From Herbiconiux moechotypicola (GTDB taxonomy: Bacteria; Actinomycetota; Actinomycetes; Actinomycetales; Microbacteriaceae), in assembly GCF_024979255.1 (NCBI RefSeq), contig NZ_JANLCN010000002.1:1-64000 (forward strand): a DNA stretch of 64,000 bases. Direction: 5' to 3'. The notes beneath the pieces were generated by a model that did not search any database, was not told the DNA's origin, and worked only from the letters and a program-made list of their open reading frames with translations. The position numbers and the translations under genes are program-made. Below, in pieces: positions 1 through 14,513 of the stretch (position 1 is the stretch's first letter; each line of letters opens with the position of its first letter).

Positions 1-70
1 CTCCAATCGTCGAGTGTTCACTTTTCACCGCCACAACTGTCCAGTTTTCAACCGCCGCCGACAATCAAGA
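1..70. other. possible insertion-sequence end remnant
   Basis: Two similar short blocks follow each other here, each reading roughly cacttttcaccgcc / cagttttcaaccgcc, the second followed by gccgaca. Repeated blocks of this kind are typical of the ends of some actinobacterial insertion sequences (IS21-like ends are my best recollection). No transposase reading frame is present inside the window, so the element, if real, lies to the left. Confidence 0.25.
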
Positions 71-97
71 ACTGGCAGCAAACTCTAGGATCGGGCC

Positions 98-616
98 GTG
101 GACTTCGCTGAATTGACCAGGGGCGTGCTCGCGACGCTCGCGTCAGCAGGAATCATCGCACTCGTTGCGCTCATGATGCCCGCTGTACGGTGGTCGCGTC
201 AGTTGGCTCGCGAGGTGAGCATCGTCAATGGTTTACCCAAAGGGGAAGAACGGACGGCTTGGGAGGAGCGGGTCAACGCTCACGCACGACGGCTGCGACT
301 CTTCAACGAGGTAATGCCTCTGCGGCACAAGATCACTCCCTGGGTGCCGGTTCTCCTCTTCGTCGGGTCCGTCGTCTGGCTCATTCTGGATCCGAGGCAG
401 ATCGACGGTGTTATTGCCGAAGGGCCGATAATGATCCCCTTCGCACTCATGGCGCTGCTCAGTACTGGCGTGTTCGTAATGACGGGAGTCCTCGGACTCA
501 CGCCCAATGCGCGCTCTGCGGAGGATCTCGCGCGGCAACGCGGTCTGGTAGTCGATGAAGCGATTCCGCAGCAGCCCCCAAGTCCCGATGTCGAGCCGCC
601 GCCACCGGGCCAGTGA
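98..616 (+). CDS. hypothetical small membrane protein
   Basis: I do not recognise this 172-residue protein. It has three hydrophobic segments (about residues 9-30, 81-98 and 109-134). A charged stretch at 45-78 lies between the first two, and the C-terminal tail is proline-rich. A TAGGAT -10 box at 86-91 ends 6 nt before the GTG start, which supports this start and a leaderless transcript. The gene stands alone between a possible insertion-sequence end and a broken dehydrogenase, so it may be accessory. No function can be assigned. Confidence 0.6.
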   Translation: MDFAELTRGVLATLASAGIIALVALMMPAVRWSRQLAREVSIVNGLPKGEERTAWEERVNAHARRLRLFNEVMPLRHKITPWVPVLLFVGSVVWLILDPRQIDGVIAEGPIMIPFALMALLSTGVFVMTGVLGLTPNARSAEDLARQRGLVVDEAIPQQPPSPDVEPPPPGQ

Positions 617-782
617 CGGCTAGAAACCAGGACGTCAACCCACCTGATCTTCGACCATTTTGAGTGTCGCCGACGTGGAGCAGATCGCGACAAAAATGTA
701 GTCACGTCCCCGAACTGGGAGAGCTAGCGCCTCGGCACGACTGGCGGAATGCGAGTCACCTGACGCAAGCACAGGAGGCCTG

Positions 783-968
783 ATGGCCAGCAATGTGGAT
801 CGCGGAGCGGTTGAGCGCTCAAGTCGTCAGAGGGCGCCTCCCAGTGGAGCAGGCATGAGCGACACGCTCAAATCGCGGACCGCATTGGTGACGGTTCGAC
901 GAGCAACATCGGCAAGGCGATCGCGCTGCAGTTCGGTGCGGAGGGCGCCCTGGTGATCACGGCTGCGC
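783..968 (+). pseudogene. short-chain dehydrogenase, 5' fragment with frameshift
   Basis: An AGGAGG box at 773-778 precedes ATG 783. From the internal ATG at 855 the frame reads as the N-terminus of a Rossmann short-chain dehydrogenase (SRTALVT). One missing base near 892 throws it out of frame. After restoring it the next residues are GSTSNIGKAIALQFGAEGA, the cofactor-binding TGxxxxxG loop and following helix. Similarity stops at about 968, exactly where the opposing protease gene ends at 969. I read this as a gene truncated by arrival of the neighbouring defence pair and then decayed. Confidence 0.65.
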
Positions 969-3527
969 TCAGACGGTGTCGATTTCGATCGGCAGCTGCA
1001 GGTCAGTCGCGATCGGCGTGTAAAGATCGACGTCCTGTTCTTGAGACTTCAGAGAAACGATCAACGAGTAGCGCACAGGTAGGTCGAGTCGATCCTTTCG
1101 CTGATTGCGCTTCCACCATCCACCGACGGGATACACGCCGAGCACGCCGCTGGCTGCAAGTTCTTGACCTGAGCCCTCCCAGATATCTTGGTGGAGCGAT
1201 CCCAGGTTGCGCTGATTGGGACCGATGAACCAATGGTCAGACCCCGACGCGGGCGAACCGGCGGCAGCATCCTCGTCGTTTTCCGCCTCCCGATTGATTC
1301 GAGAGATGAACTCGGCCTCGGTCTCCGTCGGCGATTTGAGTTCGAAGCGAAGCAGATGGGACGCATAGGAGTACCGCTGTCTCCAACCGCGTCGGGAGGC
1401 CGACGGCTCCACAAAGTAAGACAGCGTGACCTTAAGTGAAACGTCGCCGGGCCCGATTTCCTCTAGAACTTCCGTAGGCCATGGCATGGCGTGAAGTCTG
1501 AATCTGCGCATCTTGTACTCAGTTCCCTCGAACGGGACGAATGTGTCCTGCGTCACGAGAGTCACTGATTGCCGGGACGAACGCAGAACTGCATCCTCGG
1601 TGGGCACACCCCACCCGTACCGCCTGAGGAGTTCAAGCTTCGGTTCCTTCTTGGTGCCAGTCGCGTCGAACTCGGCACGCATGGCAGGAGTCCACTCGGC
1701 AGCATGTACCAGAAGACCTCGAACAGTTTCCGGCCAGTATTCGGGGTATTGCGCCATCGTGAGCGCGGCAAGGCGTGATGCTTGTGCTGTTGCCGCACTC
1801 GTAGCGTTGGCAGAGGTGAGGGAGAGGTCGTTGTGGAATCCCGTCGATCGCAGGGAGAGCAGTGGGTGACGATCCTCGAACCCCATCCCCCCGTCGGTTA
1901 GCACGTTGCCGCCCTCGAAGCAGATGTCGGGCTTGATCGGCCACGTTCTCTTGCCGAAGAGAAGTGAGGTCCGGCTGTGCGGTGATAGCTCTCCTTCTGC
2001 AGCCATCGCGGTCCATCCGGCATATTCGGGGTCACCAGGGACCGCGACGAGTTCTGTGTGCGCGCCGACGGTCAGGGCATTCCAGGACTGAGCAGGGTCT
2101 TCTACGGGAGACGTGTCGGACTCGAGTCGGTGATCCGAGTGGTACCCATCCACGTTCCCTGTGGCAATGACCAGCAATCGGCTGGCAGCGTGATCGGGCG
2201 CCGAGAGCAACCGGAGTTGATTACCGTCCCGGACGATTTCTGTTCCTGCTGCCAGGGCATCGACGCTCGCAGACCAGAGGGTGGGAACTCCTGGTCGGTC
2301 CGGATCTGTAGAGATCGGCATGCAGAACACGCGCCTACGCTGGGCTGTAACCTCGACGAGCGCTACTGCCTCGACAGTGACTGTCCCATAGTCGAGAGGA
2401 TCGGTATCCGGCTCCCCAGGCTCAGGGAGGATGCGCACAGATTCGAGTCGGTGATGAAGGTGGACCGTCCCTGCGCCCGTGAGCAAATCTTCGAGGCCGC
2501 CGAACAACGCCAATCCGGCCATCGATGTACCGTGACCTTGCCTGTCGAACCCTGACGTTCCGACGACGGTGTGCATGTCCCCCGTGTTGAGAGAGTCGGC
2601 GAGTAGTCGGTGTGTGCGGGCGACACCCGTGTCGAGGTGACACACTGCTGGGGCATCGGTGGGCGCTGCCACCACCCGCATCACAAGATCTTCGACGTAT
2701 TCATCTTGCTCATCCGGAAGAAGATCTTCGATGGTGTCGACGAACTCCGGGCGTCGGATTTCGGCAACTGGGATGCTCGTGAATGGCAGCACTTCCAACT
2801 GTTGCCATGTCGCTCTGATCCAGGCAACAACTCTGTCGTTCAGCGCGAGCGAACGGTCGAGGAGCCCGAGGTCGTAGGCGGTCGCGAACTTTTGGAGGAG
2901 GGTGATGTTCTCCTGCGAGGGATCAAGCCACAGTTCCCACCACCGGACTCCGCTCTTGGGCGGTTCACCTTCGGATTGCCAGAGATCGTCGAGTATCGCT
3001 CGTCGGATGCGGGAGATGTTGGCAACTAGCGCACGGTTCGCAGGATTGCCGTCGGGCGTCTCCCATGCATTTTCAGCTGCTCGGGTGCTCTTCTTCGCGA
3101 GATAATCTTCAAAGATCTTGAGGAACCGCGAACGGTAGGTGTCGGCAATCCAGACGACGGCCAGCTCCGGACTGGTCTCTGTCGCGGGTTGAACCGACAG
3201 CAGCAACCACTGCGGCACCTTCGGTGTTTTTCGGTGTCTCGAGAAAGCCTGAAGCGACTCGATCTTCAGTGGATACGCTGCATCGTCTCCTTCGAGAGTC
3301 ACGATGGTTCCGAGCGCCTTAAGTTCGTCCGCGCTCAGGCTCGTGCGGCCACGCTCGTCGTCGACGTCGGAGAACGCTTGTTGAAGTTGTCCTTTGATCG
3401 CAAGACCATGGGCGCGGAACTCCACCGGTCGGATCTTGGGGTTGCCTTGCCCACCTCGGGAGAAGTTCTCATTGCGTGCTCGATCGAGGACGTAGAGATG
3501 GGTGAGGTGCCGTAGCCCGTCAGCCAA
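969..3527 (-). CDS. ietS: subtilisin-like serine protease (S8), IetS-type partner of an AAA ATPase
   Basis: This 852-residue protein carries the S8 triad. Asp299 lies in CHLDTGV and His332 in GHGTSMAG. Ser577 lies in NATSAATAQ, where a GTSMA motif is usual. An oxyanion Asn458 lies in ATGNVDG. The first 290 residues and the last 230 are not recognisable domains. There is no signal peptide, so it should act in the cytoplasm. The TTG start overlaps the end of the ATPase gene by 8 nt, so the two are translationally coupled. AAA ATPase/subtilase pairs of this layout are known as ietAS, first described as a plasmid-stability pair in Agrobacterium and later reported as an antiphage system. Assignment rests on gene order and motifs. 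Confidence 0.75.
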   Translation of the reverse strand: MADGLRHLTHLYVLDRARNENFSRGGQGNPKIRPVEFRAHGLAIKGQLQQAFSDVDDERGRTSLSADELKALGTIVTLEGDDAAYPLKIESLQAFSRHRKTPKVPQWLLLSVQPATETSPELAVVWIADTYRSRFLKIFEDYLAKKSTRAAENAWETPDGNPANRALVANISRIRRAILDDLWQSEGEPPKSGVRWWELWLDPSQENITLLQKFATAYDLGLLDRSLALNDRVVAWIRATWQQLEVLPFTSIPVAEIRRPEFVDTIEDLLPDEQDEYVEDLVMRVVAAPTDAPAVCHLDTGVARTHRLLADSLNTGDMHTVVGTSGFDRQGHGTSMAGLALFGGLEDLLTGAGTVHLHHRLESVRILPEPGEPDTDPLDYGTVTVEAVALVEVTAQRRRVFCMPISTDPDRPGVPTLWSASVDALAAGTEIVRDGNQLRLLSAPDHAASRLLVIATGNVDGYHSDHRLESDTSPVEDPAQSWNALTVGAHTELVAVPGDPEYAGWTAMAAEGELSPHSRTSLLFGKRTWPIKPDICFEGGNVLTDGGMGFEDRHPLLSLRSTGFHNDLSLTSANATSAATAQASRLAALTMAQYPEYWPETVRGLLVHAAEWTPAMRAEFDATGTKKEPKLELLRRYGWGVPTEDAVLRSSRQSVTLVTQDTFVPFEGTEYKMRRFRLHAMPWPTEVLEEIGPGDVSLKVTLSYFVEPSASRRGWRQRYSYASHLLRFELKSPTETEAEFISRINREAENDEDAAAGSPASGSDHWFIGPNQRNLGSLHQDIWEGSGQELAASGVLGVYPVGGWWKRNQRKDRLDLPVRYSLIVSLKSQEQDVDLYTPIATDLQLPIEIDTV

Positions 3528-4488
3528 TGCTCGCCGTTCGCCGGGTCTTCAGCGCAGCGATGAGATCGTCCGCCGTGACCTGCGTGTGCCCACGCATGAG
3601 CACAGACTTCGCCGAGGCTTCGGCGGCTTTGACCAAGTCGGCGTGGCTGAGTCCGTCGGTGTGAGAATCGACGATGTCCCAGCGCAGTCTTTTCATCAGT
3701 GAGCCCAGCCTGCCCTTGATGACTGACCTCGCCTCCATCCTGTCCGGGAGGTGGTAGGTGAGCACCATGTCGAAGCGCCGGAAGAGCGCCTTGTCCAGAA
3801 TCGAACGGTGATTTGTCGCAGCGATGACGATGCTCTCCGGACTCGACTGCTCCAGGAAGACCAGAAAGGAATTCAGGATCCGTCGAGCTTCGCCGACATC
3901 GTTGCCAGACCGATCGGCTCCGAGAGCGTCGAACTCATCGAAGAGATATACGCCTCGACGTTCTGCTACCTCGTCGAACACCAACCGCAGCTTTCCCGCG
4001 GTCTCACCCATGTATTTGCTCAACAGGCTATCCAGCCGAACAGTGAACATCGGAAGTGCGAGCTCCCGCGCGAGAACCGCCGCAGTCATAGTCTTGCCGG
4101 TGCCCGGTGGGCCTTCGAGAAGAAGCCGGTGGGTGGGCTCAAACCCATGCTCGAGCAGGGTCATCCGTTGGCGTTGCTCTGCGATGACTTGCTTGAGGCG
4201 TTCGACGAGCTCGCTCGGACCCACCAGATTCTTCAGCGTGACTTCGGGGTGAGAAGTCTCGATGAGATCCGCGACCTCACCGCGAGGCTTCGCCAGTTTT
4301 GTGACATTGCTGCGCGGAGTTACTTGCCGAGAAGTGTCAACGGCCTTCTTGATGTCGTCCGCGAGCACGTGGTGACCCTGCCGGGCCTCACGTGCAGCGA
4401 TCTGCAACGCCACCGAGTAGAACGCCGAATCGTCGCCTGACGCGTGGCTACGTACCATGGCCGTGATGTGTTCCCCCAAGCCAGCCAT
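3520..4488 (-). CDS. ietA: AAA-family ATPase, IetA-type
   Basis: This 322-residue AAA ATPase has Walker A GPPGTGKT near residues 126-133. Walker B/DExx is VYLFDEFDALG near 180-190. A sensor-1-like AATNH and an RRFD arginine-finger motif follow. The closest look is to the FtsH/SpoVK-like AAA group that remodels proteins. A short helical N-terminal part (1-85) precedes the motor. ATG 4488 is chosen because GAGGAGG lies just upstream; a TTG five codons earlier has no such box. It is the first gene of a two-gene operon with the subtilase and probably regulates or feeds that protease. The pair lies on the 3' side of tRNA-Ser(GCT), a usual site for mobile defence modules. Confidence 0.8.
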   Translation of the reverse strand: MAGLGEHITAMVRSHASGDDSAFYSVALQIAAREARQGHHVLADDIKKAVDTSRQVTPRSNVTKLAKPRGEVADLIETSHPEVTLKNLVGPSELVERLKQVIAEQRQRMTLLEHGFEPTHRLLLEGPPGTGKTMTAAVLARELALPMFTVRLDSLLSKYMGETAGKLRLVFDEVAERRGVYLFDEFDALGADRSGNDVGEARRILNSFLVFLEQSSPESIVIAATNHRSILDKALFRRFDMVLTYHLPDRMEARSVIKGRLGSLMKRLRWDIVDSHTDGLSHADLVKAAEASAKSVLMRGHTQVTADDLIAALKTRRTASIG

Positions 4489-5118
4489 CACGCCTCCTCG
4501 CAAGTTCTGCTGATTCTGTCACTATCCCCGAGCCGAGTGTACGTGATGGGGATCCCTGAATCTTGATGACTCGATGGGGGAATCAGTATCGCAGTCGGCA
4601 CCGACAGTGGGGGACCCGTAATCCCTTCCCCATCTAGGTGGCCCTCAATCTTCGGAGGACGGCAGCAGACGACTGATCTCGGGCACCACGATCTCGGGGT
4701 CGTTTGCGTGATCTCGCATATCCGAAGACGCGTCTTCTGCGAAGCGAGCATTGTGCCTACGAACGCGTGGGGGCCGGTGATCTTGTCGTTGACACCCACG
4801 ACGAGGGAGCCACCTGCAGCGTTCGCAAGACAGGCGACCGCTTCTCCAAAGTTTTGCACAACCCTACACAGTGAAGGGTTCGGCAAAACTATTGCAAAAC
4901 TCGAACACACGGTAGCGAACCGTAAACGGCATCGCCCGCGCATCCGGCGGACGGCGGATCGAAGGCCACCGGGCAACCCTAGACGAGGTCGACCCAATCT
5001 TCGAAGGCATTCACACAATCAGCTAAGACACGGAATGGCGGGAGTGCTCCGGCATGAAGTGTGGGCGAATTGTGGGCAAGAGCATACGAAAATCACCGCC
5101 TGACCAGGGATTCTACTG
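4489..5118. other. degenerate intergenic region between ietA and tRNA-Ser(GCT)
   Basis: No intact gene is visible in this 630-bp stretch. Apart from the AlbA_2 fragment annotated separately, the minus strand has a short open end in another frame (about 4667-4780, ending VVPEISRLLPSSED). On the plus strand a short frame ends at 5103 with EVWANCGQEHTKITA. That could be the tail of a lost tyrosine integrase, but it is too short to prove. The look is of layered insertions and decay next to a tRNA 3' end. Confidence 0.5.
4752..4868 (-). pseudogene. AlbA_2 (Schlafen-type) domain fragment
   Basis: About 38 residues match the core of the AlbA_2 domain found in many ATP-binding or nucleic-acid-binding actinobacterial proteins: an amphipathic helix (FGEAVACLANAAGG), then a hydrophobic strand (SLVVGVND) and a short loop ending AFVGT. 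The flanking sequence in the same frame is not protein-like, and the full domain and its partner domain are missing. I infer the remains of a larger gene. AlbA_2 proteins are often found in defence islands, in keeping with the adjacent ietAS pair. Confidence 0.55.
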
Positions 5119-5209
5119 CGGAGACGGTGGGATTTGAACCCACGGTGCCCAATAAAGGGCACTCCACCTTAGCAGGGTGGTGCACTAGGCCGAACTATGC
5201 GACGTCTCC
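5119..5209 (-). tRNA. tRNA-Ser(GCT)
   Basis: Read on the minus strand from 5209, this is a 91-nt tRNA. The 7-bp acceptor stem is GGAGACG/CGTCTCC, the anticodon arm is CCACC-CTGCTAA-GGTGG (anticodon GCT), the variable arm is long as in type II tRNAs, and the T-arm contains GTTCAAATC. The discriminator base is G and CCA is not encoded. The end of the upstream hydrolase gene overlaps its first 15 nt. Its 3' end points at the accessory region 1-5118. Confidence 0.95.
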
Positions 5210-5893
5210 TTGGCTTGCGCCTTGGCCATCATAGCCGATGGTGTGCGTGAACTCGGCCACCGCATCCGCCGCCGCAGCGAGGTGTTCGGCGTGGGTGTGC
5301 CCCGAGATCTTCACGCGCGGCTTGAACTCGTGCTCGCCGTCGTCGAGCCAGAACACGCGGATGCTCGGCGGCAGCCCGTACCCCGGCACCTCGTCGATCG
5401 TGCCGAAAGGGTCGCGGGTGCCCTGGCAGATGAGGGCGGGGGTCTGCAGGTCGAACAGGTGGGCCGTGCGCGGCTTCGCGGACGACCCGGGCGGATGGAA
5501 CGGATAGCCGAGGCAGACCAGACCCGCGACCGGGCCCGTCCCGCCGCCGTGCAGCTCGTCGGCGACGAGGCTGGCGACGCGACCGCCCATCGACTTGCCG
5601 CCGATCAGCAGGCGTGGTCGCGCATCCGGAGTCTCGGCTGTGAGCTGGGCGACGACCGCGTCGACGGCGTCGCGGTACTCCCCCGCGAGCGTCTCGGCCC
5701 GCGGGGGCGGCTTGCGCGCACCGGTGCGGCGGGCCGCCATGTAGGCGAACTCGAAGCGGGCTGTGCGCACCCGGCGCTCGGCGAGGAGCTCGGCGAAGGT
5801 GGTCATCCAGGCCGAGTCCATCGCGGCGCCCGCGCCGTGCGCGAGCACGAGCACGGGGGCGTCGACGGGGCCGGTCCAGAGGAGGTCGGTCAT
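5195..5893 (-). CDS. alpha/beta hydrolase, dienelactone-hydrolase/KANL3-Tex30 type
   Basis: This 232-residue single-domain hydrolase has a nucleophile elbow GKSMGG (Ser101) and an early oxyanion-loop AHGAGA (residues 18-23). A late His falls in a DDGEHEFKPR context (about residue 183). Together these are typical of the small cytoplasmic alpha/beta hydrolases related to KANL3/Tex30. The substrate is unknown. The gene starts 7 nt after the LCP gene and is probably co-transcribed with it. Its last five codons and its TAG stop lie inside the 5' part of tRNA-Ser(GCT), so the transcript may also carry the tRNA. Confidence 0.8.
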   Translation of the reverse strand: MTDLLWTGPVDAPVLVLAHGAGAAMDSAWMTTFAELLAERRVRTARFEFAYMAARRTGARKPPPRAETLAGEYRDAVDAVVAQLTAETPDARPRLLIGGKSMGGRVASLVADELHGGGTGPVAGLVCLGYPFHPPGSSAKPRTAHLFDLQTPALICQGTRDPFGTIDEVPGYGLPPSIRVFWLDDGEHEFKPRVKISGHTHAEHLAAAADAVAEFTHTIGYDGQGASQGDVA

Positions 5894-5900
5894 CGCACGT

Positions 5901-7178
5901 CTAATCGTTGCCGACCGAGCAGGTGTAGTCGGCGGCGCTCTGGCCCTTGACCGAGTCGGGGAGGACGGTGACTCCGGATGCGGCCGGGTCGACGGGCGCG
6001 GGGGTCGCGGCCGGGTCGACGGGTGCCGCAGGGTCGACGGGCACGGCAGGATCGACGGGCGCAGCCGGATCCGCCGTCACCACCGGCGCGTTCGGGTCGG
6101 GTACCGATGCGATCCCGCCCGCCGCGGCCACGGCCACCGGCTGGTCGGCCTGGATCGCCGCGAACAGGATGGCCGCCGCCTCCTCGTCGGGCGCCACCTT
6201 GCCCGCGGGCACCCAGTCGGCGTAGTAGTTCGGGTAGGCCACGAAGGTGAGCCGCGAGAGGTCCATGTCTTTCAGGCTCAGCGCGATCGACACCATCGTG
6301 TCGGGCGAGGCGAGCCGCTGCGAGAGGATCATGTTGCTCGCCGCCGCCTTCGCCAGCCCGTAGAGCTTGCCGAAGTCGGTGAGGGTGGAGTCGCTTGTGA
6401 CGGTGCGCACGAGTGACGACAGGAACACCTGCTGCGACGAGATGCGCCCCAGGTCGCTGCCGTCGCCCACGCCGTGCCGGGTGCGCAGGAATCCCAGCGC
6501 ATCCGCCCCCTGCAGCGGGTGCGTGCCGGGCTCGAGGTACACCCCGGTGTACGGGTCGTCGATCACCTCGGCCACGCACACCGGCACGCCGCCGAGCGCG
6601 TTCGACATCTCGATCACGCCGTTGAACTGGATCTCGGCGGCGAAAGGGATGCTGAGCCCCGACAGCGCCTCGACCGTCAGCACCGTGCAGGCGAGCCCGC
6701 CCTGCGAGAGCGACTCGTTGATCGGAGCGGTGTAGCCGCCGCCCTCGGGGCAGTCGGGGATGTCGACGACGAGGTCGCGCGGAAAGCTCACCACGGTCGC
6801 GTTCGAGTGGTCTTCGGAGATGTGGAGCAGCATCGTGACGTCGTTGAGCTCGCCGCCCTCGTCCTCACCGTAGGCGTCGCCCTGGCCGGTGCGGCTGTCG
6901 CTGCCCACGAGCAGCAGGTTGACCCCGCCGTCGATGGCCGAGATGGCCGGCGGGGGCTCGGCGCCGGCGGCTTGCGCGACGGCGGCCTCGTCGTCGGAGA
7001 CGAGCGAGACCGTGGTGATGGAGCTCGTGACGTCCCACATGGCGTAGGCGGCGATCGACACCCCGCTCACGAGCACCACGGCGAGCGCGGCGGCGAGCAT
7101 GGTCACGATGGCGCGGGCCGGATGCGGGGTGTGCTGGCGCCCGTGGCGCGCGACCGGCGCCGAACCGTCTCCGTGCAT
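5901..7178 (-). CDS. LytR-CpsA-Psr (LCP) family protein
   Basis: LCP proteins transfer lipid-linked anionic glycopolymers (teichoic acid, arabinogalactan or capsule-like chains) to peptidoglycan on the outer face of the membrane. This 425-residue protein has one transmembrane helix (about 23-47). The LCP domain follows, with VGSDSR near 91-96 and the SFPRD polyphosphate-binding motif near 131-135. A long tail of about 70 residues is built from PVDPAA-type repeats. ATG 7178 is chosen over an upstream start because a GGGGGTGGGG box precedes it and the N-terminus then leads quickly into the membrane helix. The tail may reach through the wall. Confidence 0.88.
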   Translation of the reverse strand: MHGDGSAPVARHGRQHTPHPARAIVTMLAAALAVVLVSGVSIAAYAMWDVTSSITTVSLVSDDEAAVAQAAGAEPPPAISAIDGGVNLLLVGSDSRTGQGDAYGEDEGGELNDVTMLLHISEDHSNATVVSFPRDLVVDIPDCPEGGGYTAPINESLSQGGLACTVLTVEALSGLSIPFAAEIQFNGVIEMSNALGGVPVCVAEVIDDPYTGVYLEPGTHPLQGADALGFLRTRHGVGDGSDLGRISSQQVFLSSLVRTVTSDSTLTDFGKLYGLAKAAASNMILSQRLASPDTMVSIALSLKDMDLSRLTFVAYPNYYADWVPAGKVAPDEEAAAILFAAIQADQPVAVAAAGGIASVPDPNAPVVTADPAAPVDPAVPVDPAAPVDPAATPAPVDPAASGVTVLPDSVKGQSAADYTCSVGND

Positions 7179-7264
7179 CCCCACCCCCGATGTCGTTCCG
7201 ATTCTGGCAGAACACGACCCGCAACCCGGCATTGACGGGATGCGGGAGACGGCATACGCTTTAT

Positions 7265-7280
7265 TCAATTAGTTAGTTGA
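7265..7280. promoter_or_regulatory. candidate ArsR operator
   Basis: The imperfect 16-bp palindrome tcaattagttagttga (arms TCAATTA / TAGTTGA) ends 6 nt before the ATG of the ArsR-family gene, overlapping its ribosome-binding region. Autorepression by the ArsR protein is the simple reading. Confidence 0.45.
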
Positions 7281-7286
7281 TAAAGG

Positions 7287-7676
7287 ATGAACGCGATGGT
7301 CACCGACGACGAGCACCTCGACCGGGCCTTCCTGGCCCTGGCCGACCCCGTGCGCCGGGCGATCGTGGCCCGGCTCAGCAGAGGGCCCGCCACCGTGAAC
7401 GAGCTCGCCGAACCGTTCGCCATCTCGTTGCAGGCGGTGTCAAAGCACATCCAGGTGCTCGAGCAGGCAGGCCTCGTGACCCGCACGCGTGACGCCCAGC
7501 GCCGGCCCGTGCACCTCGCGCCCGCCGCCCTGGAACGGCTGACCGCTTGGATCGACGGCTACCGACTCGCCCACGAGCAGAGCTTCCGCCGTCTCGACGC
7601 CGCACTGCGCTCATCCGCCACCCCACCGGCGACGCCGTCGTCGCCCCCGTCGAATCACAAGGAGAAGGAATCATGA
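7287..7676 (+). CDS. ArsR-family transcriptional regulator
   Basis: This 129-residue winged-helix repressor has the pattern LADPVRRAIVARL, then TVNELAEPFAISLQAVSKHIQVLEQAGLV (recognition helix about residues 43-58). It lacks the metal-binding cysteines of metal-sensing ArsR proteins. It belongs to the group that is habitually paired with an SRPBCC/AHSA1 protein, and that partner follows with an ATGA overlap. A palindrome just upstream suggests autoregulation. The ligand sensed is unknown. Confidence 0.88.
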   Translation: MNAMVTDDEHLDRAFLALADPVRRAIVARLSRGPATVNELAEPFAISLQAVSKHIQVLEQAGLVTRTRDAQRRPVHLAPAALERLTAWIDGYRLAHEQSFRRLDAALRSSATPPATPSSPPSNHKEKES

Positions 7677-8143
7677 GCAACCCCGTCACCATCACCGCCC
7701 CCGAGGGCCTGCCGTTCATCGAGATCGTGCGCGACTTCGACGCACCGGTCGACGCCGTCTACCGCGCCTACGCCGACCCCGAGCTGGTGCGGCAGTGGGT
7801 GGGCCCGAACGGTTACGAGACCACCGTCGACACCTACCGCCTCGAGACCGGCGGGCGCTGGCGCTACATTCAGCGCAATCCGGCGGGCGACGAGTTCGCG
7901 TTCAACGGCGTGTTCCACCGGGCGGTGCCGAATCAGGAGATCGTGCAGACGTTCGAGTGGGAGGGCCTGCCCGAGTTCGTCTCGATCGAGACGATGCGCT
8001 TCACCTCTCTCGGCGACGGGCGCTCGCGCGTGACCGGCTGGAGCGTCTTCCCCAGCGTCGAGTCGCGCGACGGCATGATCGACAACGGCATGGAGCACGG
8101 CGTCGTCGAGGGCTACGAACGCCTCGACGCCCTCCTCCGCTGA
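7673..8143 (+). CDS. SRPBCC (AHSA1-like) domain protein
   Basis: This 156-residue START/Bet-v-1-like fold protein has the usual opening IVRDFDAPVDAVYRAYADPE. YADPELVRQWVGP and a C-terminal DNGMEHGVVEGYERLD helix follow. The fold forms a hydrophobic cavity that binds small ligands. The start overlaps the ArsR stop (ATGA) and has AAGGAGAAGGA upstream, so the pair forms one operon. Such pairs are widespread in actinobacteria, but the ligand and output are seldom known. Confidence 0.88.
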   Translation: MSNPVTITAPEGLPFIEIVRDFDAPVDAVYRAYADPELVRQWVGPNGYETTVDTYRLETGGRWRYIQRNPAGDEFAFNGVFHRAVPNQEIVQTFEWEGLPEFVSIETMRFTSLGDGRSRVTGWSVFPSVESRDGMIDNGMEHGVVEGYERLDALLR

Positions 8144-8182
8144 CGCCTTCGCACCATGTCACCAAACGGCACATCTCGACCA

Positions 8183-8217
8183 ACAATGTCCGTGATCGGC
8201 CCGTAGACTGACATTGT
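8183..8217. promoter_or_regulatory. inverted repeat and -10 box at the fic promoter
   Basis: Perfect 8-bp arms ACAATGTC (8183-8190) and GACATTGT (8210-8217) flank a TAGACT -10 box (8204-8209) located 6 nt before the GTG start. A protein bound to both arms would cover the promoter. The Fic protein itself ends in a winged helix and is a plausible ligand. Confidence 0.5.
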
Positions 8218-9412
8218 GGATGTGACTATGTTCGTCAAGGGCGCCCCGGGGGCACTTGTGCCCATCAGCGGCACCGACCCGACGCTGGGCGCCTGGACAC
8301 ACCGCGCATTCGTTCCCGACCCGCTCGCGCTGTCGATGCCTGCATTGACTCCCGAGACCTTCTTGGCGGTATCCGAAGCGCGAGCCGCTCTGGCCGCGCT
8401 CGACAGCACGGCACGGCAGCTGCCGAATCCGACGCTCCTCCGCATGCCGACCCTCCGCAGGGAAGCCCAGAGCACCTCCGCGCTCGAGGGAACCTATGCG
8501 CCTCTCGCCGATGTGCTGACCGCAGACGAGGATTCACCCGCGAGCGCAGAGCTGACGGAGGTCTTGAACTACGTGCGGATGGCGACCACGGGCTACGACC
8601 GCGTCGCCGAAGGACGCCGCCTCACACCGTCGCTCATCAGCGACCTCCAAGGCATCCTCATGAGAGGCACACCACTCGAATCCGTGTCGGGCCGCATCAG
8701 GGACGGTCAGGTCGTAGTCGGGAGGCGGCCGTCCGCCGACCCGTTCGGATTCCCCGTGCACGCCGCGAGATTCGTCCCCTCCCCGGCGGGACTTCCTTTG
8801 GAGGCAGGCGTTCGGGATCTCACCGACTGGATGCTCACCGATCACACCGGCCGAATCGATCCCGTCGTCGTGGCGGCGATGTCGCACTACCAGTTCGAGA
8901 CCCTCCACCCGTTCCGCGACGGCAACGGCAGGTTGGGGCGCTTCCTCGTCGTGATCCAGCTGCTGCTCACAGGCGTCCTGAGCGAGCCGACTCTGACTGT
9001 GTCGCCTTGGTTCGAGGCACGGCGAACCGAGTACTACGACCACCTCCTCGGCGTGAGCGCCCGAGGGGATTGGGACTCGTTCGTGCGGTTCTTCGCCTCT
9101 GGCCTGCAGGCCGCCGCGCACCAGACGCGCGAGCAGATGATCGCTCTCGTGAAAACGCAGGGCGAACTGAAAGAGATCGTTTGCTCTTCGCGCCTGCGCG
9201 CAGACACCGCCCACGCCCTGGTCGACCTGGCTATCGCGAACCCGTCGTTCACAGTCCGCCGAGTGCAGGCAGAACTGGCCATCTCGTACGGCAGGGCGAA
9301 CGCACTCGTGGCGCAGTTGACAGAGCTGGGTGTACTTGCAGTCGTCGACGCCCAGGCCTATGTTCGTCGCTTCTACTCACCCCAGGTTCTGGGCGTACTC
9401 ACCTCGAACTGA
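8216..9412 (+). CDS. Fic-domain AMP-transferase-like protein with C-terminal winged helix
   Basis: This 398-residue Fic protein has the complete catalytic motif HPFRDGNGRLGR (His231 to Arg242). Fic enzymes usually transfer AMP from ATP to a protein hydroxyl. An N-terminal inhibitory helix carries TSALEG (residues 87-92), fitting the (S/T)xxxE(G/N) motif whose Glu blocks ATP binding, so this is a self-inhibited class II type. The last 70 residues look like a winged helix (VRRVQAELAISYGRANALVAQL). The GTG start follows a -10 box by 6 nt, giving a leaderless mRNA. The target is unknown. Confidence 0.88.
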   Translation: MDVTMFVKGAPGALVPISGTDPTLGAWTHRAFVPDPLALSMPALTPETFLAVSEARAALAALDSTARQLPNPTLLRMPTLRREAQSTSALEGTYAPLADVLTADEDSPASAELTEVLNYVRMATTGYDRVAEGRRLTPSLISDLQGILMRGTPLESVSGRIRDGQVVVGRRPSADPFGFPVHAARFVPSPAGLPLEAGVRDLTDWMLTDHTGRIDPVVVAAMSHYQFETLHPFRDGNGRLGRFLVVIQLLLTGVLSEPTLTVSPWFEARRTEYYDHLLGVSARGDWDSFVRFFASGLQAAAHQTREQMIALVKTQGELKEIVCSSRLRADTAHALVDLAIANPSFTVRRVQAELAISYGRANALVAQLTELGVLAVVDAQAYVRRFYSPQVLGVLTSN

Positions 9413-9425
9413 TCCGTCGGCAGCC

Positions 9426-9458
9426 GCGCGCGGTGTTTCGCGCGCATTTCGCGTTTTT
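9426..9458 (+). terminator. candidate terminator after fic
   Basis: GCGCGC at 9426-9431 and 9440-9445 can pair around an 8-nt loop, and a run of five T follows at 9454-9458, shortly after the fic stop codon. The stem is short, so the call is moderate. Confidence 0.4.
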
Positions 9459-9579
9459 CGGCCGTCGGGGGCGTGCTGGGCGTCTCTGCGGTGGAGCGGC
9501 GGATCCGTAGCGTCTCAGCTACCACAGCGGGTGGCCGCATCGAGAGCGGGCCACCCCTCACGAGGGAGCGAGATACGAC

Positions 9580-10311
9580 ATGACGGAATTCGTCCTGATC
9601 CACGGATCGTGGCACGACGGCGCACTCTGGGAGCCGGTGGCGACGCACCTGCGCGACGCCGGCCACACGGTGCACACCCCCACGGTCGCCGGGCACGGCG
9701 TCGGGGTGGACAAGGCGGTCGACCACGCCGACTGTGTGGCCTCGATCGTCGACTGGATGCTCGAGGCCGACCTGAGCGACGTGGTGCTGCTCGGCCACAG
9801 CTACGGCGGCACCATCATCGCGCGGGTGTTCGAGGAGATCCCCGAGCGCATCCGCCGACTCGTCTTCTGGAACGCGTTCGTGCCGGCGCCGGGCAACAGC
9901 CTGCTCGACGAGGTGCCGCCGCACTACCGCGAGCTGTTCTCGCAGCTGGCCGCCGCCTCCGACGACAACACCGTCTCGATGCCGTTCCCCATCTGGCGCG
10001 AAGCCTTCATCCAGGACGCCCCGCTCGAGCTCGCCCAGTCCACCTTCGAGCAGCTCTCCTCCGAGCCGTTCCAGCCCTTCGTCGACAAGCTGCCGCTCAC
10101 CCGCTTCTACGAGCTGCTGCCCACCGTCGGCCGCAGCTACATCAACGCGACGGAGGACACCGCGCTGCCTCCGGGCGAGTGGGGCTGGCACCCGCGCATG
10201 TCGGGCCGCCTGCTCGGCGCCCGCCTGGTGCAGCTGCCGGGCAGCCACGAGGTGATGTTCACCGCGCCCGCGCTGCTCGCGCAGAAGATCATCGAGGCCG
10301 GACGGGACTGA
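9580..10311 (+). CDS. alpha/beta hydrolase (esterase-like, MenH/EstA group)
   Basis: This 243-residue hydrolase opens with the oxyanion loop VLIHGSWHDGALW. It has the nucleophile elbow GHSYGG (Ser74), Asp in the DKLPL region and a C-terminal His in LPGSHEVMF. The family contains plant-type methylesterases and many bacterial esterases of unknown substrate; it is cytoplasmic and has no signal peptide. GAGGGAG at 9562-9568 supports the start. Its 3' end overlaps the end of the convergent AraC-type gene by 23 bp. Confidence 0.82.
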   Translation: MTEFVLIHGSWHDGALWEPVATHLRDAGHTVHTPTVAGHGVGVDKAVDHADCVASIVDWMLEADLSDVVLLGHSYGGTIIARVFEEIPERIRRLVFWNAFVPAPGNSLLDEVPPHYRELFSQLAAASDDNTVSMPFPIWREAFIQDAPLELAQSTFEQLSSEPFQPFVDKLPLTRFYELLPTVGRSYINATEDTALPPGEWGWHPRMSGRLLGARLVQLPGSHEVMFTAPALLAQKIIEAGRD

Positions 10312-11308
10312 CGCGGGCACCCCGCCCGTGCAGCGCCTCATTCGGCGACATCCCGAAGGCCTCGCGATGCAGCTGCGCGAACCGGCCGAGGTTGCCGAAC
10401 CCCCACGTCGCGGCCACCGACGACACGGTGACGGCGGAGCGGCCGTACGGATCGGCGTCCAGGAGATCCTGGTGCGCCCTCCGCAGCCGCTCCGCCCTCA
10501 GCACCGTGAGCGGTGTGGTGCCGAGGTGGCGTCGGAACCCCTCCTGCAGCGACCGCGGACTCGTGTGCACGGCCGCGGCGATGTCGGCGAGCGTCACGTC
10601 GTCGGCCGCCGAGGCCTCGATGAACTGCACCGCGCGGTCGATCACGGCCGACGGGGCGGCCGGCGCCACCTCTGCGGTGAGCACGGGGTAGGCCTGCAGC
10701 ACGGCGGCGATGAGCAGCCGCTTCAGCTCGGTGCGGATGAGCGGGGCCTGGTCGAGCAGGCCCGTCTCGACGAAGTCACGCACCAGCACCGTGCTCACCT
10801 GGTTCCAGGCGGCCATCAGCTCGGGCGGGGGCGGCGCGACGGGGAAGGCGAGTGCGGCCCTCGAGCCCGAACGGCCACGACGGGGTCCGATCGCCGCCTC
10901 GACGTCGGCACGGTCGAGACGGACGGTGAGCAGCTCGCAGCCGTCGAGCCACCGCATGCGATAGGCCGACGACGGATCGAGTGCGACGGCCTGGCCGGGC
11001 CCGAGCACGGCCGACTCCCGGCCGCTGCTCACGGCGAACCTTCCCCGCAGCGGCCTGGACAGCAGCACGAAGTCACGGAACGGCTCCGCCTGCACCTGGG
11101 CGACGCCCTCGCCGTACGACAGACGGTAGAGATCGAGCTTCGCGGTGCCGCCGTGGAACTGGGTGGCCCGGAACCGTCCGGAGCGGGGCGAGACCGCGAG
11201 GGAGTGGGGGCAGTAGCTCGTGCTGAGCCGGCCTCGCGCCTCGTCGACGTCGGCGGTGTCGACCTGGAGGCTCATGCCTCGCGGAGCCGTCTGCGAGCGG
11301 TCGTGCAT
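10289..11308 (-). CDS. AraC-family transcriptional regulator
   Basis: This 339-residue regulator has an N-terminal cupin-like sensor resembling the AraC-binding-like domain (about 15-190). A C-terminal double helix-turn-helix follows (ADIAAAVHTSPRSLQEGFRRHLGTTPLTVL, then VAATWGFGNLGRFAQLHREAFGMSP). ATG 11308 is chosen because GAGGGAGG lies just upstream; in-frame starts further out lack a box. It faces the aryl-CoA operon across 156 bp and overlaps the hydrolase at its 3' end. It could regulate either, but a PaaX-type regulator closes the operon. Confidence 0.85.
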   Translation of the reverse strand: MHDRSQTAPRGMSLQVDTADVDEARGRLSTSYCPHSLAVSPRSGRFRATQFHGGTAKLDLYRLSYGEGVAQVQAEPFRDFVLLSRPLRGRFAVSSGRESAVLGPGQAVALDPSSAYRMRWLDGCELLTVRLDRADVEAAIGPRRGRSGSRAALAFPVAPPPPELMAAWNQVSTVLVRDFVETGLLDQAPLIRTELKRLLIAAVLQAYPVLTAEVAPAAPSAVIDRAVQFIEASAADDVTLADIAAAVHTSPRSLQEGFRRHLGTTPLTVLRAERLRRAHQDLLDADPYGRSAVTVSSVAATWGFGNLGRFAQLHREAFGMSPNEALHGRGARVSPVRPR

Positions 11309-11340
11309 CAGGACCTCCCTCATCGGGCTCGAGGCCCGTA

Positions 11341-11359
11341 ACGAGAATCTGACTCTCGT
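11341..11359. promoter_or_regulatory. inverted repeat between araC-type gene and aryl-CoA operon
   Basis: ACGAGA (11341-11346) and TCTCGT (11354-11359) form a 6-bp inverted repeat in the divergent promoter region. It is a candidate site for the AraC- or PaaX-type regulator. A TTGACG hexamer occurs at 11403-11408, but I cannot match it with a well-spaced -10 box. Confidence 0.3.
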
Positions 11360-11464
11360 CAAAACCGTAACATGCTCCTATCATGGCGAAACATAACTGA
11401 AATTTGACGATCGTAGTGTCGGAGATGCGATCAATGAGCCCCACCGATGACAGTGAGGAAGTGG

Positions 11465-12793
11465 ATGATGAACTCGGCGTTCTGGAACCCCAAGACGGAG
11501 ACCCTCGAGCGCGACGAGCTGCGCGCCCTGCAGCTGGCGAAGCTGCGCCGGGTGGCGACCTGGGCCCAGGAGCGCAGTCCCTTCTACAAGAAGCACTTCG
11601 CGGCCGCGGGCTTCGACCCCGAGCAGCTGCGCACCTTCGCCGACATCGACCGCATCCCGTTCCTCACCCGTGAGGCCTGGATGGCGAGCCAGCTCGCGTT
11701 CCCGCCGTTCGGTGAGCTGCCGGTCGCCGGTGCCGACTCCGCCATCCGCCTGCACACCACCAGCGGCACCAGCGGCAAGCAGCCCCTGCGCGCGCTCGAC
11801 AGTCGCAAGGACTGGTCGTGGTCGGCCGAGATGTGGTGCTACGCCCTCTGGGCCGCGGGCGTGCGGTCGACCGACATCGCCTACGTGGCGTTCGGCTACG
11901 GCTCGTTCATCGGTTTCTGGGGCCTGCACAACGGCCTGGAGAAGATCGGCGCGCTCACCATCCCGGGCGGCGCCCAGACCACCCCCGCCCGCGTGAAGCA
12001 GATCATCGACTTCGGCGCCACCGTAGTGGCCTCCACCCCCACCTATGCCCTCCGCCTCGCGCAGGAGGCCGAGGCCCTCGGCTACGACCTCGCGGCCTCA
12101 CCGGTGCGTGTCGTGATGCTCTCGGGCGAGCCCGTGCCCGAGTCGACGCGCCAGCTGATCGAGCAGCAGTGGGGCGCCATCGCCCTCGACACCGCCGGCA
12201 TGACCGAGATCTCGACCATCTTCATGTTCGAGCCCGCCGACAAGCCGGGCGGCTGCCACATCATCGAGGACAGCTTCATCGAGCAGGTCATCGATCCCGA
12301 GACCGGCCTCGAACTGCCCTACGGCGAGGCCGGCGAGCGGGTCACCACCTCCTTCGGGCGCGGCATGATTCCCCTGCTGCGCTATCGCACCGCCGACCTC
12401 GTGGTGAAGCTGCCGCACACCGCGGCGGCCAACGGGCGCACCTGGGACTTCTACGAGGGCGGCATCATCGGCCGGGTCGACGACATGAAGCTCGTGCGCG
12501 GCACCAACGTGTACCCGCGGGCGATCGAGGGCATCGTGCGCACCTACGCCGAGGTCGACGAGTTCCAGATCGAGATCCTGCGCGAGGGCATCCGCGACGA
12601 GATCGTGCTGCGGCTCGAGACCGTCGAGGCCTTCGACGACGAGCGCTGGGACTCGCTGCACGAGTCGCTGCGCGTCGACCTCGCCGACGCCCACGAGGGC
12701 CTGCGGTTCAAGATCGACCGCGCCGCGGCCGGCAGCCTGCCCCGCTACGAGCTCAAGGCGCGCCGCCTCACCGACTCGCGCCCGACGAACTGA
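11465..12793 (+). CDS. PaaK-type aryl-CoA ligase (AMP-forming)
   Basis: This 442-residue adenylate-forming ligase is close in layout to phenylacetate-CoA ligase. It has an N-terminal AQERSPFYKKHF and P-loop HTTSGTSGKQP. GMTEI lies in the adenine pocket region, YRTADLV holds the ribose-binding Asp, and the C-terminal domain begins at GRVDDMKLVRGTNVYP. It should activate an aromatic acid with ATP and CoA. GAGGAA lies 6 nt before ATG 11465. It is the first gene of an operon that continues with monooxygenase, thioesterase and ring-processing enzymes. The exact acid cannot be read from the sequence; phenylacetate is unlikely because no paaABCDE oxygenase is present. Confidence 0.85.
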   Translation: MMNSAFWNPKTETLERDELRALQLAKLRRVATWAQERSPFYKKHFAAAGFDPEQLRTFADIDRIPFLTREAWMASQLAFPPFGELPVAGADSAIRLHTTSGTSGKQPLRALDSRKDWSWSAEMWCYALWAAGVRSTDIAYVAFGYGSFIGFWGLHNGLEKIGALTIPGGAQTTPARVKQIIDFGATVVASTPTYALRLAQEAEALGYDLAASPVRVVMLSGEPVPESTRQLIEQQWGAIALDTAGMTEISTIFMFEPADKPGGCHIIEDSFIEQVIDPETGLELPYGEAGERVTTSFGRGMIPLLRYRTADLVVKLPHTAAANGRTWDFYEGGIIGRVDDMKLVRGTNVYPRAIEGIVRTYAEVDEFQIEILREGIRDEIVLRLETVEAFDDERWDSLHESLRVDLADAHEGLRFKIDRAAAGSLPRYELKARRLTDSRPTN

Positions 12794-12846
12794 CCACCCG
12801 GACGAACCGACCACACCGGCGAACTGACCCCAGGGAGAAGAAGCAG

Positions 12847-13053
12847 ATGACCGCCACCGACCTGATCGGCAACCCCCTCACCGCGCAGGAGCAAAGCCTC
12901 CTCGCGATCTACCGCGAGCTCGAGAGCTTCGCCGCCGACGACACCCTCGCCCCCACCACCCACGCGAACGTGCTCGCCGCCCTCGCCCCGCTCGGCGTGG
13001 CCGTGACGGGCCTCGGCATCACGCTTGAGCACCTGGTCGACATCGGGGCCTGA
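12847..13053 (+). CDS. small hypothetical protein of the aryl-CoA operon
   Basis: This 68-residue acidic, Ala/Leu-rich, probably helical protein lies between the ligase and the cupin and is preceded by an AGGGAGAAGAAG-type ribosome-binding region. I do not recognise a family. Codon use looks like that of its neighbours, and its position in the middle of the operon argues that it is real and functionally tied to the pathway, perhaps as a small subunit or stabiliser. Confidence 0.65.
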   Translation: MTATDLIGNPLTAQEQSLLAIYRELESFAADDTLAPTTHANVLAALAPLGVAVTGLGITLEHLVDIGA

Positions 13054-13110
13054 GAAACCCGGATGCGCGGCGCACCCGCCGCCGCATCCCACCCAGAGAG
13101 GAAGAACACC

Positions 13111-13548
13111 ATGACCGATCAGCGAGGGCTCGACGTCGAGCCCGTCGTCACCCGAGCCGGGCACGAGTACGGCGACACCGGACAGTCCGGCGGAGCACAC
13201 CGCGTCTCCGGCGTGAGCGTGCAGCACACGCCCGCCACCCGCATCTGGTTCGGGCGAGTGAGCAACGAACCCGGGTTCCGCTCGCTGCCGCACCACCACG
13301 GCGAGGCCGAGACCGGCGGCTACGTGCTCACCGGCCACGGCCGCATCTACTTCGGCGAGGGGTTCACGCGGTTCGTCGACCTCACGGCGGGCGACTTCGT
13401 GTTCGTGCCGCCGTTCATGCCGCACGTCGAAGCGAACATGTCGACCACCGACGAGCTCGTGTGGCTCACGGCGCGCACGCCCGACAACATCGTGGTCAAC
13501 CTCGACGACGTGCCCGACGAGAGCCTCGAGGGGTACCGGCGCGCCTGA
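13111..13548 (+). CDS. single-domain cupin protein
   Basis: This 145-residue protein has both cupin motifs with all usual metal ligands: the HHHGEAE stretch in motif 1 (two His and Glu) and GDFVFVPPFMPHVEAN in motif 2 (His). ATG 13111 follows GAGAGGAAGAA. Single cupins range from isomerases to small ring-cleaving dioxygenases. In an operon that builds a hydroxylated aryl-CoA but has no large dioxygenase gene, a ring-cleavage or isomerase role is possible. Gentisate dioxygenase itself is normally a two-cupin protein of about 350 residues, so this is not that enzyme in its usual form. Confidence 0.78.
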   Translation: MTDQRGLDVEPVVTRAGHEYGDTGQSGGAHRVSGVSVQHTPATRIWFGRVSNEPGFRSLPHHHGEAETGGYVLTGHGRIYFGEGFTRFVDLTAGDFVFVPPFMPHVEANMSTTDELVWLTARTPDNIVVNLDDVPDESLEGYRRA

Positions 13549-14513
13549 TGAACACTCTCCCCTTTCTCTCGGCCATCGAGCTGACCGAGCTCCCCGGCAC
13601 GGCTGAGACCAGCAGCACCGCCGTGTTCAGCGCGCGCACCCAGCACGTGCCGTGGCCGAAGTCGTACGGCGGCGACGTGCTGGCGCAGGCTGCGGCCGCG
13701 GGCATCCGCACCGTCGGCGACGACCGGAGCCTGCACGCGATGCACTCGCTGTTCGTGGCGCCGGCCTCGGTGGGCGAGGAGATCGAGTACCGGGTCACCT
13801 CGCTGCGCGACGGCCGCTCGTACTCCTCGCGCGAGGTGAAGGGATACCAGCACGGAGCCGTGGTGGTGTCGAGCGTGCTCTCCTTCCACGTGGGCGAGGA
13901 GTCCGCCACCGTCGCCGTGCCACTGCCCGAGGTGGCACAGTCGGAGGATCTGCCGTCGGCGGCCGAGGCGGTCGAGGCGCTCGACCGTGCGAACCCCGGG
14001 CGCATCCCGGCCGCCGCGGCCGCGTACTGGTCGGCGACGGGCGAGGGTGGGCGCAGCTTCGACCTGCGGCACGTCGAGGGGGCGCTCTACGCCTCGCCCG
14101 CGCATCCTGCCCACGCCTCGGTGGAGACGCCGACAGGCACCCCCACGGGCGCCCCCACCGTCGACCACGTCTGGGTGCGGCCGTTCGCGCCACTCCCCGC
14201 CGACCAGATCGTGCACGACCTCGCCCTCGTGCACGTGTGCGACTACTCCATCCTCGAACCCGTGCTGCGCGGCCAGGGTCGCGCCTGGACCGACCCGGGT
14301 CTCACCACCGCCAGCCTCGACCACTCGTTCTGGCTGCACGAGCGGGTGCCGTTCGACGACTGGGTGCTCTACACGCAGACGGTCGAGTCGTACGGCCACG
14401 GGCGCGCGCTCGTGCGCGGCACCATGCACAGCCGAGACGGGAGGCTGCTCGCCTCCGTCGCCCAGCAGGGAATGATCCGCGACCGCGGGCCGGAAAGGAA
14501 CGAACGCTCATGA
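13548..14513 (+). CDS. acyl-CoA thioesterase, TesB-like double hotdog
   Basis: This 321-residue protein has the two-hotdog layout of acyl-CoA thioesterase II. The first repeat contains VPWPKSYGGDVLAQA and ends with the GVVVSS-like strand. The second contains LDHSFWLHERVPFDDWVLY and a terminal RDGRLLASVAQQGMIR. The family hydrolyses acyl-CoA to free acid and CoA. Start and preceding stop share one base (TGATG), and the end overlaps the monooxygenase start (ATGA), so all are tightly coupled. Here it most likely releases the ring product from CoA after hydroxylation. Confidence 0.87.
   Translation: MNTLPFLSAIELTELPGTAETSSTAVFSARTQHVPWPKSYGGDVLAQAAAAGIRTVGDDRSLHAMHSLFVAPASVGEEIEYRVTSLRDGRSYSSREVKGYQHGAVVVSSVLSFHVGEESATVAVPLPEVAQSEDLPSAAEAVEALDRANPGRIPAAAAAYWSATGEGGRSFDLRHVEGALYASPAHPAHASVETPTGTPTGAPTVDHVWVRPFAPLPADQIVHDLALVHVCDYSILEPVLRGQGRAWTDPGLTTASLDHSFWLHERVPFDDWVLYTQTVESYGHGRALVRGTMHSRDGRLLASVAQQGMIRDRGPERNERS

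Follow-up and report, generated by a model that had tools for sequence, protein, structure and literature searches.

In this study, we analysed the first 64 kb (hereafter the window) of contig C12 (499,772 bp) of Herbiconiux moechotypicola, whose genome comprises 4.28 Mb, and found a pair of adjoining genes that code for an AAA ATPase (IetA) and a subtilase-type S8 protease (IetS). Both genes are intact and lie on the minus strand at positions 969-4488 of the window, in a patch on the 3′ side of tRNA-Ser(GCT) (5118-5209, minus strand). A sequence-only reading of this DNA had described such a pair as an IetAS-like defence module beside the tRNA; the pair is real, and the span given for it (783-5209) encloses all of its parts. 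The G+C content of positions 1-5117 is about 60% (58 to 62% by part), compared with 71.4% for positions 5210-64000. The contig begins at window base 1 and thus ends about 1 kb past the protease gene, and therefore the far flank of the low-G+C patch is out of view.

The open reading frame of the ATPase extends over 3520-4503 on the minus strand, and the better start is the ATG at 4488, which is preceded by GAGGAGG and gives a protein of 322 residues (3520-4488). IetA matched the Pfam family AAA (3e-29) and includes a three-helix N-terminal part, Walker A and B motifs, an aromatic pore loop (SKYMGET), and two arginine fingers. IetS (969-3527, minus strand) is 852 residues long, matched Peptidase_S8 (3.5e-42), and starts with a TTG codon, so that its gene overlaps the IetA stop by 8 nt. 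The same 8-nt overlap was found at the loci of Herbiconiux ginsengi (L020; genome G005, record NZ_FNPZ01000004.1) and Agreia bicolorata (L021), and at L022, L049, L050, L104, L106, L107, L108, L109, and L110. The Peptidase_S8 domain covers residues 292-640 (1608-2654, minus strand) with the triad Asp299, His332, and Ser577. In two alignments of 10 and 16 rows (22 distinct), this triad and Asn458 were invariant, as were K132, D184/E185, N226, and R237/R238 of IetA, and the pore-loop aromatic was Tyr or Phe in every row. These IetA residues correspond to the Walker A lysine, the Walker B acids, the sensor Asn, and the arginine fingers. The sequence-only reading had singled out Ser577 of the protease, and this is the right residue. 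A text-pattern search of 36 sequences missed Walker A in six (L062, L065, L066, L068, L070, and L118), the pore loop in L112 and L117, and the HGT pattern in L072; the 22 distinct aligned rows show the lysine, the aromatic residue, and the histidine throughout, and L112, L117, and L118 are outside these alignments.

Both genes are under purifying selection. The ratio of nonsynonymous to synonymous substitution rates (dN/dS) of IetA was 0.034 against H. ginsengi and 0.045 against Agreia, and that of IetS was 0.061 and 0.068, respectively; these values are rough, because dS is about 1. Within IetS, the C-terminal third was the most constrained (0.033 and 0.031) and the N-terminal third the least (0.085 and 0.107). 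The sequence-only reading had proposed that the long unassigned N- and C-terminal regions of the protease may hold a sensor. The N-terminal part (residues 1-285; 2673-3527, minus strand) is indeed without a Pfam family, and a Pfam search of this region in eight homologues gave no I9 or other convincing match. Its structural model contains two beta-alpha-beta-beta-alpha-beta runs (residues 74-176 and 195-258), which would be compatible with a propeptide-like fold. The VIA list scarcely covers IetS residues before 277, so that the lack of a match there is uninformative, and IetS had no PDB sequence match at E 0.1. The beta-rich C-terminal part (residues about 650-842; 1002-1580, minus strand) aligns to the subtilase KP-43 jointly with the protease domain. 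Since it is also the most constrained part, it is a family-wide domain and not an obvious variable sensor, and the proposal is not supported for this end of the protein.

The profile search against PADLOC models placed both proteins in the IetAS family. IetA matched PDLC04232 (223 bits) and PDLC02196 (222 bits) over nearly its full length (1.5e-66), and IetS gave a weak and partial match to PDLC02198 (90 bits, 2.2e-26, residues 281-845). With these two model matches, the adjacency of the genes, and the intact triad and ATPase motifs, the pair can be assigned to the already known IetAS family in the sense of PADLOC, as had been suggested before. The PADLOC IetAS system and the NCBIfam IteA-IteS pair share the two-protein architecture of the window pair, but the window proteins fall under the NCBIfam equivalog cut-offs: IetA scored 185.9 bits to anti-phage IteA (cut-off 510), and IetS scored 39.6 bits to anti-phage IteS (cut-off 900). 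Ten more IetS proteins of the window branch were also under the IteS cut-off, nine of them with 32.7-88.2 bits and one (L069) without a match at 1e-6. Pairs of other branches fit the PADLOC models far better, for example the IetS of L153 (874 bits to PDLC02199) and a 496-residue IetS piece of L128 (500 bits to PDLC04233). Therefore, judging from these scores, the window branch seems to have no PADLOC model of its own.

An S8 peptidase encoded on a 214,233-bp plasmid of Agrobacterium fabrum, presumably pTiC58, aligned with IetS over 86% of the query at 37.4% identity (E 9e-117). We take the window pair to lie near the branch to which the IetS-type proteins of Agrobacterium plasmids belong. The ietAS genes of pTiC58 were described as a toxin–antitoxin pair (Yamamoto 2009, as given in PMC5006074). 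The window pair shares the architecture of an AAA antitoxin and an S8 toxin; however, it lies on an actinobacterial chromosome, its genes overlap by 8 nt, the identity is only about 37%, and its toxicity is predicted. Another such system is SgiAT of Salmonella Genomic Island 1 (SGI1), in which a subtilisin-like toxin and an AAA antitoxin are reported to share an operon of a mobile element (PMC5006074; PMC10954446). According to PMC5006074, S026 (SgiA) and S025 (SgiT) are 50% and 36% identical to IetA and IetS of pTiC58. SgiAT is likened here to the window pair by its published description. Among the relatives compared with the window, H. ginsengi and A. bicolorata carry IetA proteins 94% and 92% identical and IetS proteins 88% and 86% identical to those of the window.

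The pairing of the two genes is consistent. IetA adjoins IetS on the same strand at 24 of the 25 intact genome loci examined, the two genes being divergent at L118, and it is directly upstream of IetS at 12 long viral-contig loci (13 were returned, and the fragment L073 was left out). The count of intact loci excludes L053, where an IetS piece lies beside ISL3 transposases, and the examined set does not include the partial matches L090-L092 of the order search. Furthermore, the distance matrices of the two proteins in 36 pairs (the set excludes L054) were correlated in a mirror-tree comparison (r = 0.911); none of 2000 permutations was as high, and the maximum among them was 0.30. No intact IetS without IetA was found among the loci examined, and a lone-protease reading is ruled out by this adjacency. 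Beyond the window branch, an IetS-type frame lay beside IetA at 10 of the 12 family loci that we examined from the IetA profile search. L127 is a broken lone IetA (1073-2115) without IetS within 1.5 kb, and the IetA of L138 has no partner within the same distance; thus, IetA-like genes can occur without IetS. At L053, the IetS piece beside the ISL3 transposase gene is at 8445-10579, and a second copy with the same starting residues is at 4773-6104.

The results of species distribution showed that the pair is accessory. IetS was found in 3 of the 16 genomes of the genus, including that of the window itself, and in 9 of the 398 family genomes. The distribution depends on the query: these 9 came from a single-protein search, whereas the IetA profile found 24 of the 398 at E 1e-50, mostly with pairs of other branches (8 belong to the window branch, 12 more were examined, and four were not fetched). 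At the order level, 92 of 396 genomes passed E 0.001 in the IetS alignment, but just 17 matches in 16 genomes exceeded 480 bits, and most of the remaining ones are short subtilase matches. It is very improbable that IetA and IetS form a common housekeeping AAA/S8 pair that has nothing to do with mobile DNA or conflict. It is true that some relatives seem to be alone between metabolic or other housekeeping-type genes (for example L113, by eye). However, 13 of the 16 genus genomes and 389 of the 398 family genomes have no match, the G+C content is foreign, the pair has another location in H. ginsengi, and relatives lie on plasmids and viral contigs. Nor is there a conserved single locus across the close relatives checked. 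The reading of the pair as a single-copy core gene at this locus in all relatives is ruled out by this distribution, and the cassette is horizontally acquired. Relatives were found in 444 plasmid records, of which 314 are predicted to be conjugative. In addition, genes for phage integrases were found in the neighbourhood of L020, L049, and L050, and genes for transposases in that of L021, L053, and L118; of ten candidate mobile genes tested, those of L052 and L038 had no Pfam match.

We compared window positions 1-6000 with the two closest loci. The only DNA in common with H. ginsengi was 965-4502 and with Agreia 968-4507 (3.54 kb), that is, the interval 965-4507 on the minus strand. Since the shared DNA is limited to IetA-IetS, the window holds a bare two-gene cassette. 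Meanwhile, H. ginsengi and Agreia share a longer unit (4976 columns, 87.5%) that reaches about 80 bp further upstream, includes an AlbA_2 gene downstream, and is sharply bounded (L020 6945-11907 and L021 6941-11914). The AlbA_2 gene follows IetS and codes for 436 residues in H. ginsengi, and it is split over frames in Agreia. It is missing from the genome of the window, which gave no match to the AlbA_2 protein of L020; the shared DNA stops at 965-968, at the IetS stop.

Because two relatives keep AlbA_2 directly downstream of IetS, and because of the AlbA_2 matches that lie near IetAS, the window pair might be a stripped form of an IetA-IetS-AlbA_2 system, in which AlbA_2 would act as a second effector or sensor beside the protease. 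In the 24 IetAS genomes, PF04326 gave 21 matches in 14 genomes, and five of the 21 were within 10 kb of IetAS (the window, H. ginsengi, Agreia, G377, and G023, all Microbacteriaceae), where about 0.15 would be expected; this count was made after the association had been noticed, so the small probability is no clean test. By eye, the AlbA_2 proteins next to IetAS include at least two subtypes. Homologues of the L020 protein occur in 7 of the 398 family genomes, two of them weakly, and stretches of 17.5 kb around the AlbA_2 gene in G049, G050, and G085 gave no IetA or IetS profile match. AlbA_2 homologues occur without IetAS, and therefore AlbA_2 is more likely an independent cargo gene; these three genomes argue against AlbA_2 as an obligate third component. 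More likely, AlbA_2 is a frequent island neighbour, and the operon-like arrangement in two relatives is the exception. We consider the stripped three-part system unlikely.

The patch also holds gene remnants. A probable remnant of an AlbA_2 (Schlafen-type) gene lies upstream of IetA (4728-4850, minus strand), with 24.2 bits to PF04326 at a Pfam cut-off of 25.3. On the other side, a remnant like the N-terminus of a short-chain dehydrogenase (SDR) was seen by eye on the plus strand (857-968, or about 857-970); it is cut at the cassette boundary, where the protease gene ends, and its 38-residue frame has no Pfam match. The patch had been described as one of broken genes, and of the two fragments named then, the AlbA_2 one is likely and the SDR one rests on inspection by eye. 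The tRNA was the sole match in the Rfam scan, and the promoter and terminator scans gave results at or under chance level. A 172-residue protein with hydrophobic stretches is encoded at the contig start (98-616, plus strand); searches at E 0.1 against Pfam, PADLOC, and NCBIfam gave no match for it.

The 3′ flank of tRNA-Ser(GCT) was compared in 14 of 15 genus relatives (the contig of G008 stops before the tRNA), and it was variable across the 14. A block that begins about 0.16 kb from the start of the tRNA in G014 recurs about 5.5 to 14.6 kb away in G007, G002, G013, G006, and G009. In the genome of the window, this block of six relatives sits inside a different contig (G000:C29:159346-160642), so the gene order around tRNA-Ser(GCT) has changed. 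An integrase gene or its 3′ remnant lies against the tRNA in G001, G004, G005, and G010 (recognised with Pfam in G004 and G010 and by translation in G001 and G005). Furthermore, window positions 5057-5139 were 79% identical over 86 columns to L039 5833-5914, where H. ginsengi has an att-like copy of the end of this tRNA, and the tRNA-proximal DNA at 5057-5117 is possibly the end of an integrated element. In H. ginsengi (G005:C2 920875-963260; L039 and L026), extra partial tRNA-Ser(GCT) ends were observed about 14.6 kb and 42 kb from the tRNA, and these are probably stacked integrated elements. From the likeness of 5057-5139 to the att-like copy and the integrases at the tRNA of relatives, an old integration beside the tRNA of the window is plausible.

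Nevertheless, the arrival of IetAS with such an element is not proved, because the assembly shows one tRNA-end copy (with up to 3 mismatches allowed, on a contig that starts at base 1), no integrase was recognised among the scanned open reading frames of 1-5117, and no more than 1 kb of contig remains past the protease. Repeats within 1-5300 have the appearance of chance matches. The idea that an element integrated at tRNA-Ser(GCT) brought in the pair as its cargo is further weakened by the 88%-identical protease of H. ginsengi, which lies on contig C11 while the tRNA of that genome is on C2, and by the 3.54 kb that are all that window positions 1-6000 have in common with H. ginsengi and Agreia. 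Near the tRNA of the window, at a distance of 3 kb, a Fic/DOC protein is encoded at positions 8216-9412 (plus strand); in the relatives G002 and G011 (L034 and L030), Fic/DOC genes immediately adjoin tRNA-Ser(GCT) on its 3′ side.

Some relatives of the pair lie beside other defence genes. Ten genes at seven loci were chosen by eye and tested with PADLOC, and other defence genes were found nearby in at least 7 of the 25 loci, which is a lower bound. At L050, GajA and GajB (Gabija) are 0.2 kb from IetS; at L109, a CBASS cyclase, an E1-E2 protein, and a phospholipase effector are present, the nearest being 0.7 kb from IetA; and at L114, a type IIG restriction enzyme lies 0.6 kb from IetA. The remaining ones are a type I restriction subunit (L106), a cytosine methylase (L038), an Orf5/HEC-06-type protein (L022), and the candidate PDC-S32 (L020). 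The relatives include pairs next to defence genes and one on the 214-kb plasmid of A. fabrum, and so the pair does not cluster with AAA/S8 pairs that have no link to defence. In Salmonella, ietAS was reported with Gabija and a retron on a single contig (PMC9958689). Locus L153 of G351 (5946-15564) is a defence-like cluster of a PDC-S65 (SIR2-like) gene, an AlbA_2 gene, and an IetAS pair of another branch.

Taken together, the homology, the intact active sites, the consistent pairing, the selection, the mobility, and the defence neighbours in some relatives are observed. The pair is best read as an abortive-defence system of the toxin–antitoxin type that lies close to the plasmid-stability branch of IetAS. 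Most likely, it shields the cell or its mobile DNA from phages and other invaders. In homologues, others have established that the protease is toxic and that the ATPase gives rescue: SgiT lowered transformation 100- to 1000-fold and was toxic in less than 30 min, and SgiA counteracted it (PMC5006074). In this reading, IetS would be a subtilase that acts inside the cell and does harm once free. IetA would be a ring-type AAA translocase, made just ahead of IetS from the coupled genes, and it may bind IetS and restrain or remodel it. When IetA is lost, titrated, or outcompeted, either through loss of the mobile DNA or by phage replication proteins, IetS would be freed and digest cellular proteins, and the cell would halt or die ahead of the spread of the phage or a competing plasmid. 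The ietAS genes are named among the systems that phage primase, helicase, or polymerase are said to activate (PMC10732053, citing another paper; PMC10286901, in a table). IetAS is listed as a defence system, and its mechanism is called unknown, in PMC11878078 and PMC9958689, and our literature search, which covered few subscription papers, found no study that solved it. We infer the direct inhibition, the trigger, the substrates of IetS, and the outcome in this host, as well as the defence role of the window branch, and on balance we hold this restrained-toxin mechanism in an intact acquired pair to be probable.

Several points weigh against it. The NCBIfam cut-offs were missed, and therefore the anti-phage evidence belongs to another branch. 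The count of defence neighbours has no random control, some relatives seem to stand alone, as mentioned above, and no experiment on the window branch in actinobacteria was found in the literature search. Moreover, SGI1 sgiAT under its own promoter gave no post-segregational killing in the work described in PMC5006074. This last result also counts against a second explanation, namely that IetAS is a pure stability (addiction) module that keeps its carrier mobile DNA without an anti-phage role in this host, the DNA found in the window being a stranded remnant of such an element. The nearer characterised relatives, pTiC58 ietAS and SGI1 sgiAT, are described for plasmid or island stability (PMC5006074), and the many plasmid-borne relatives and the gene remnants in the patch fit such a module as well. 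However, the DNA around the cassette decays while the cassette itself has stayed intact under purifying selection, and some relatives lie beside Gabija, CBASS, and restriction genes. We regard pure stability as possible but less probable, and the stability and phage-defence roles are not mutually exclusive.

It is doubtful that the pair works as a two-part ATP-dependent protease, in which IetA would unfold captured (phage) proteins and feed them to IetS, so that defence would consist in direct proteolysis and not in the release of a toxin. In the homologous pair, the lone protease is reported to be toxic and the ATPase protective (PMC5006074), whereas in a degradation machine that depends on its ATPase the roles would be reversed. 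IetS also aligns to ordinary single-chain subtilases and not to a chambered protease.

The window thus contains a compact and intact actinobacterial pair with a good alignment to a plasmid-borne IetS-type protease and a weak one to the anti-phage models. For annotation, this means that the window branch scores weakly in current defence models. Finally, the natural series of a two-gene form, a three-gene form, and a form with a broken third gene lets one ask whether stability and phage defence amount to a single function, and whether AlbA_2 plays a role.

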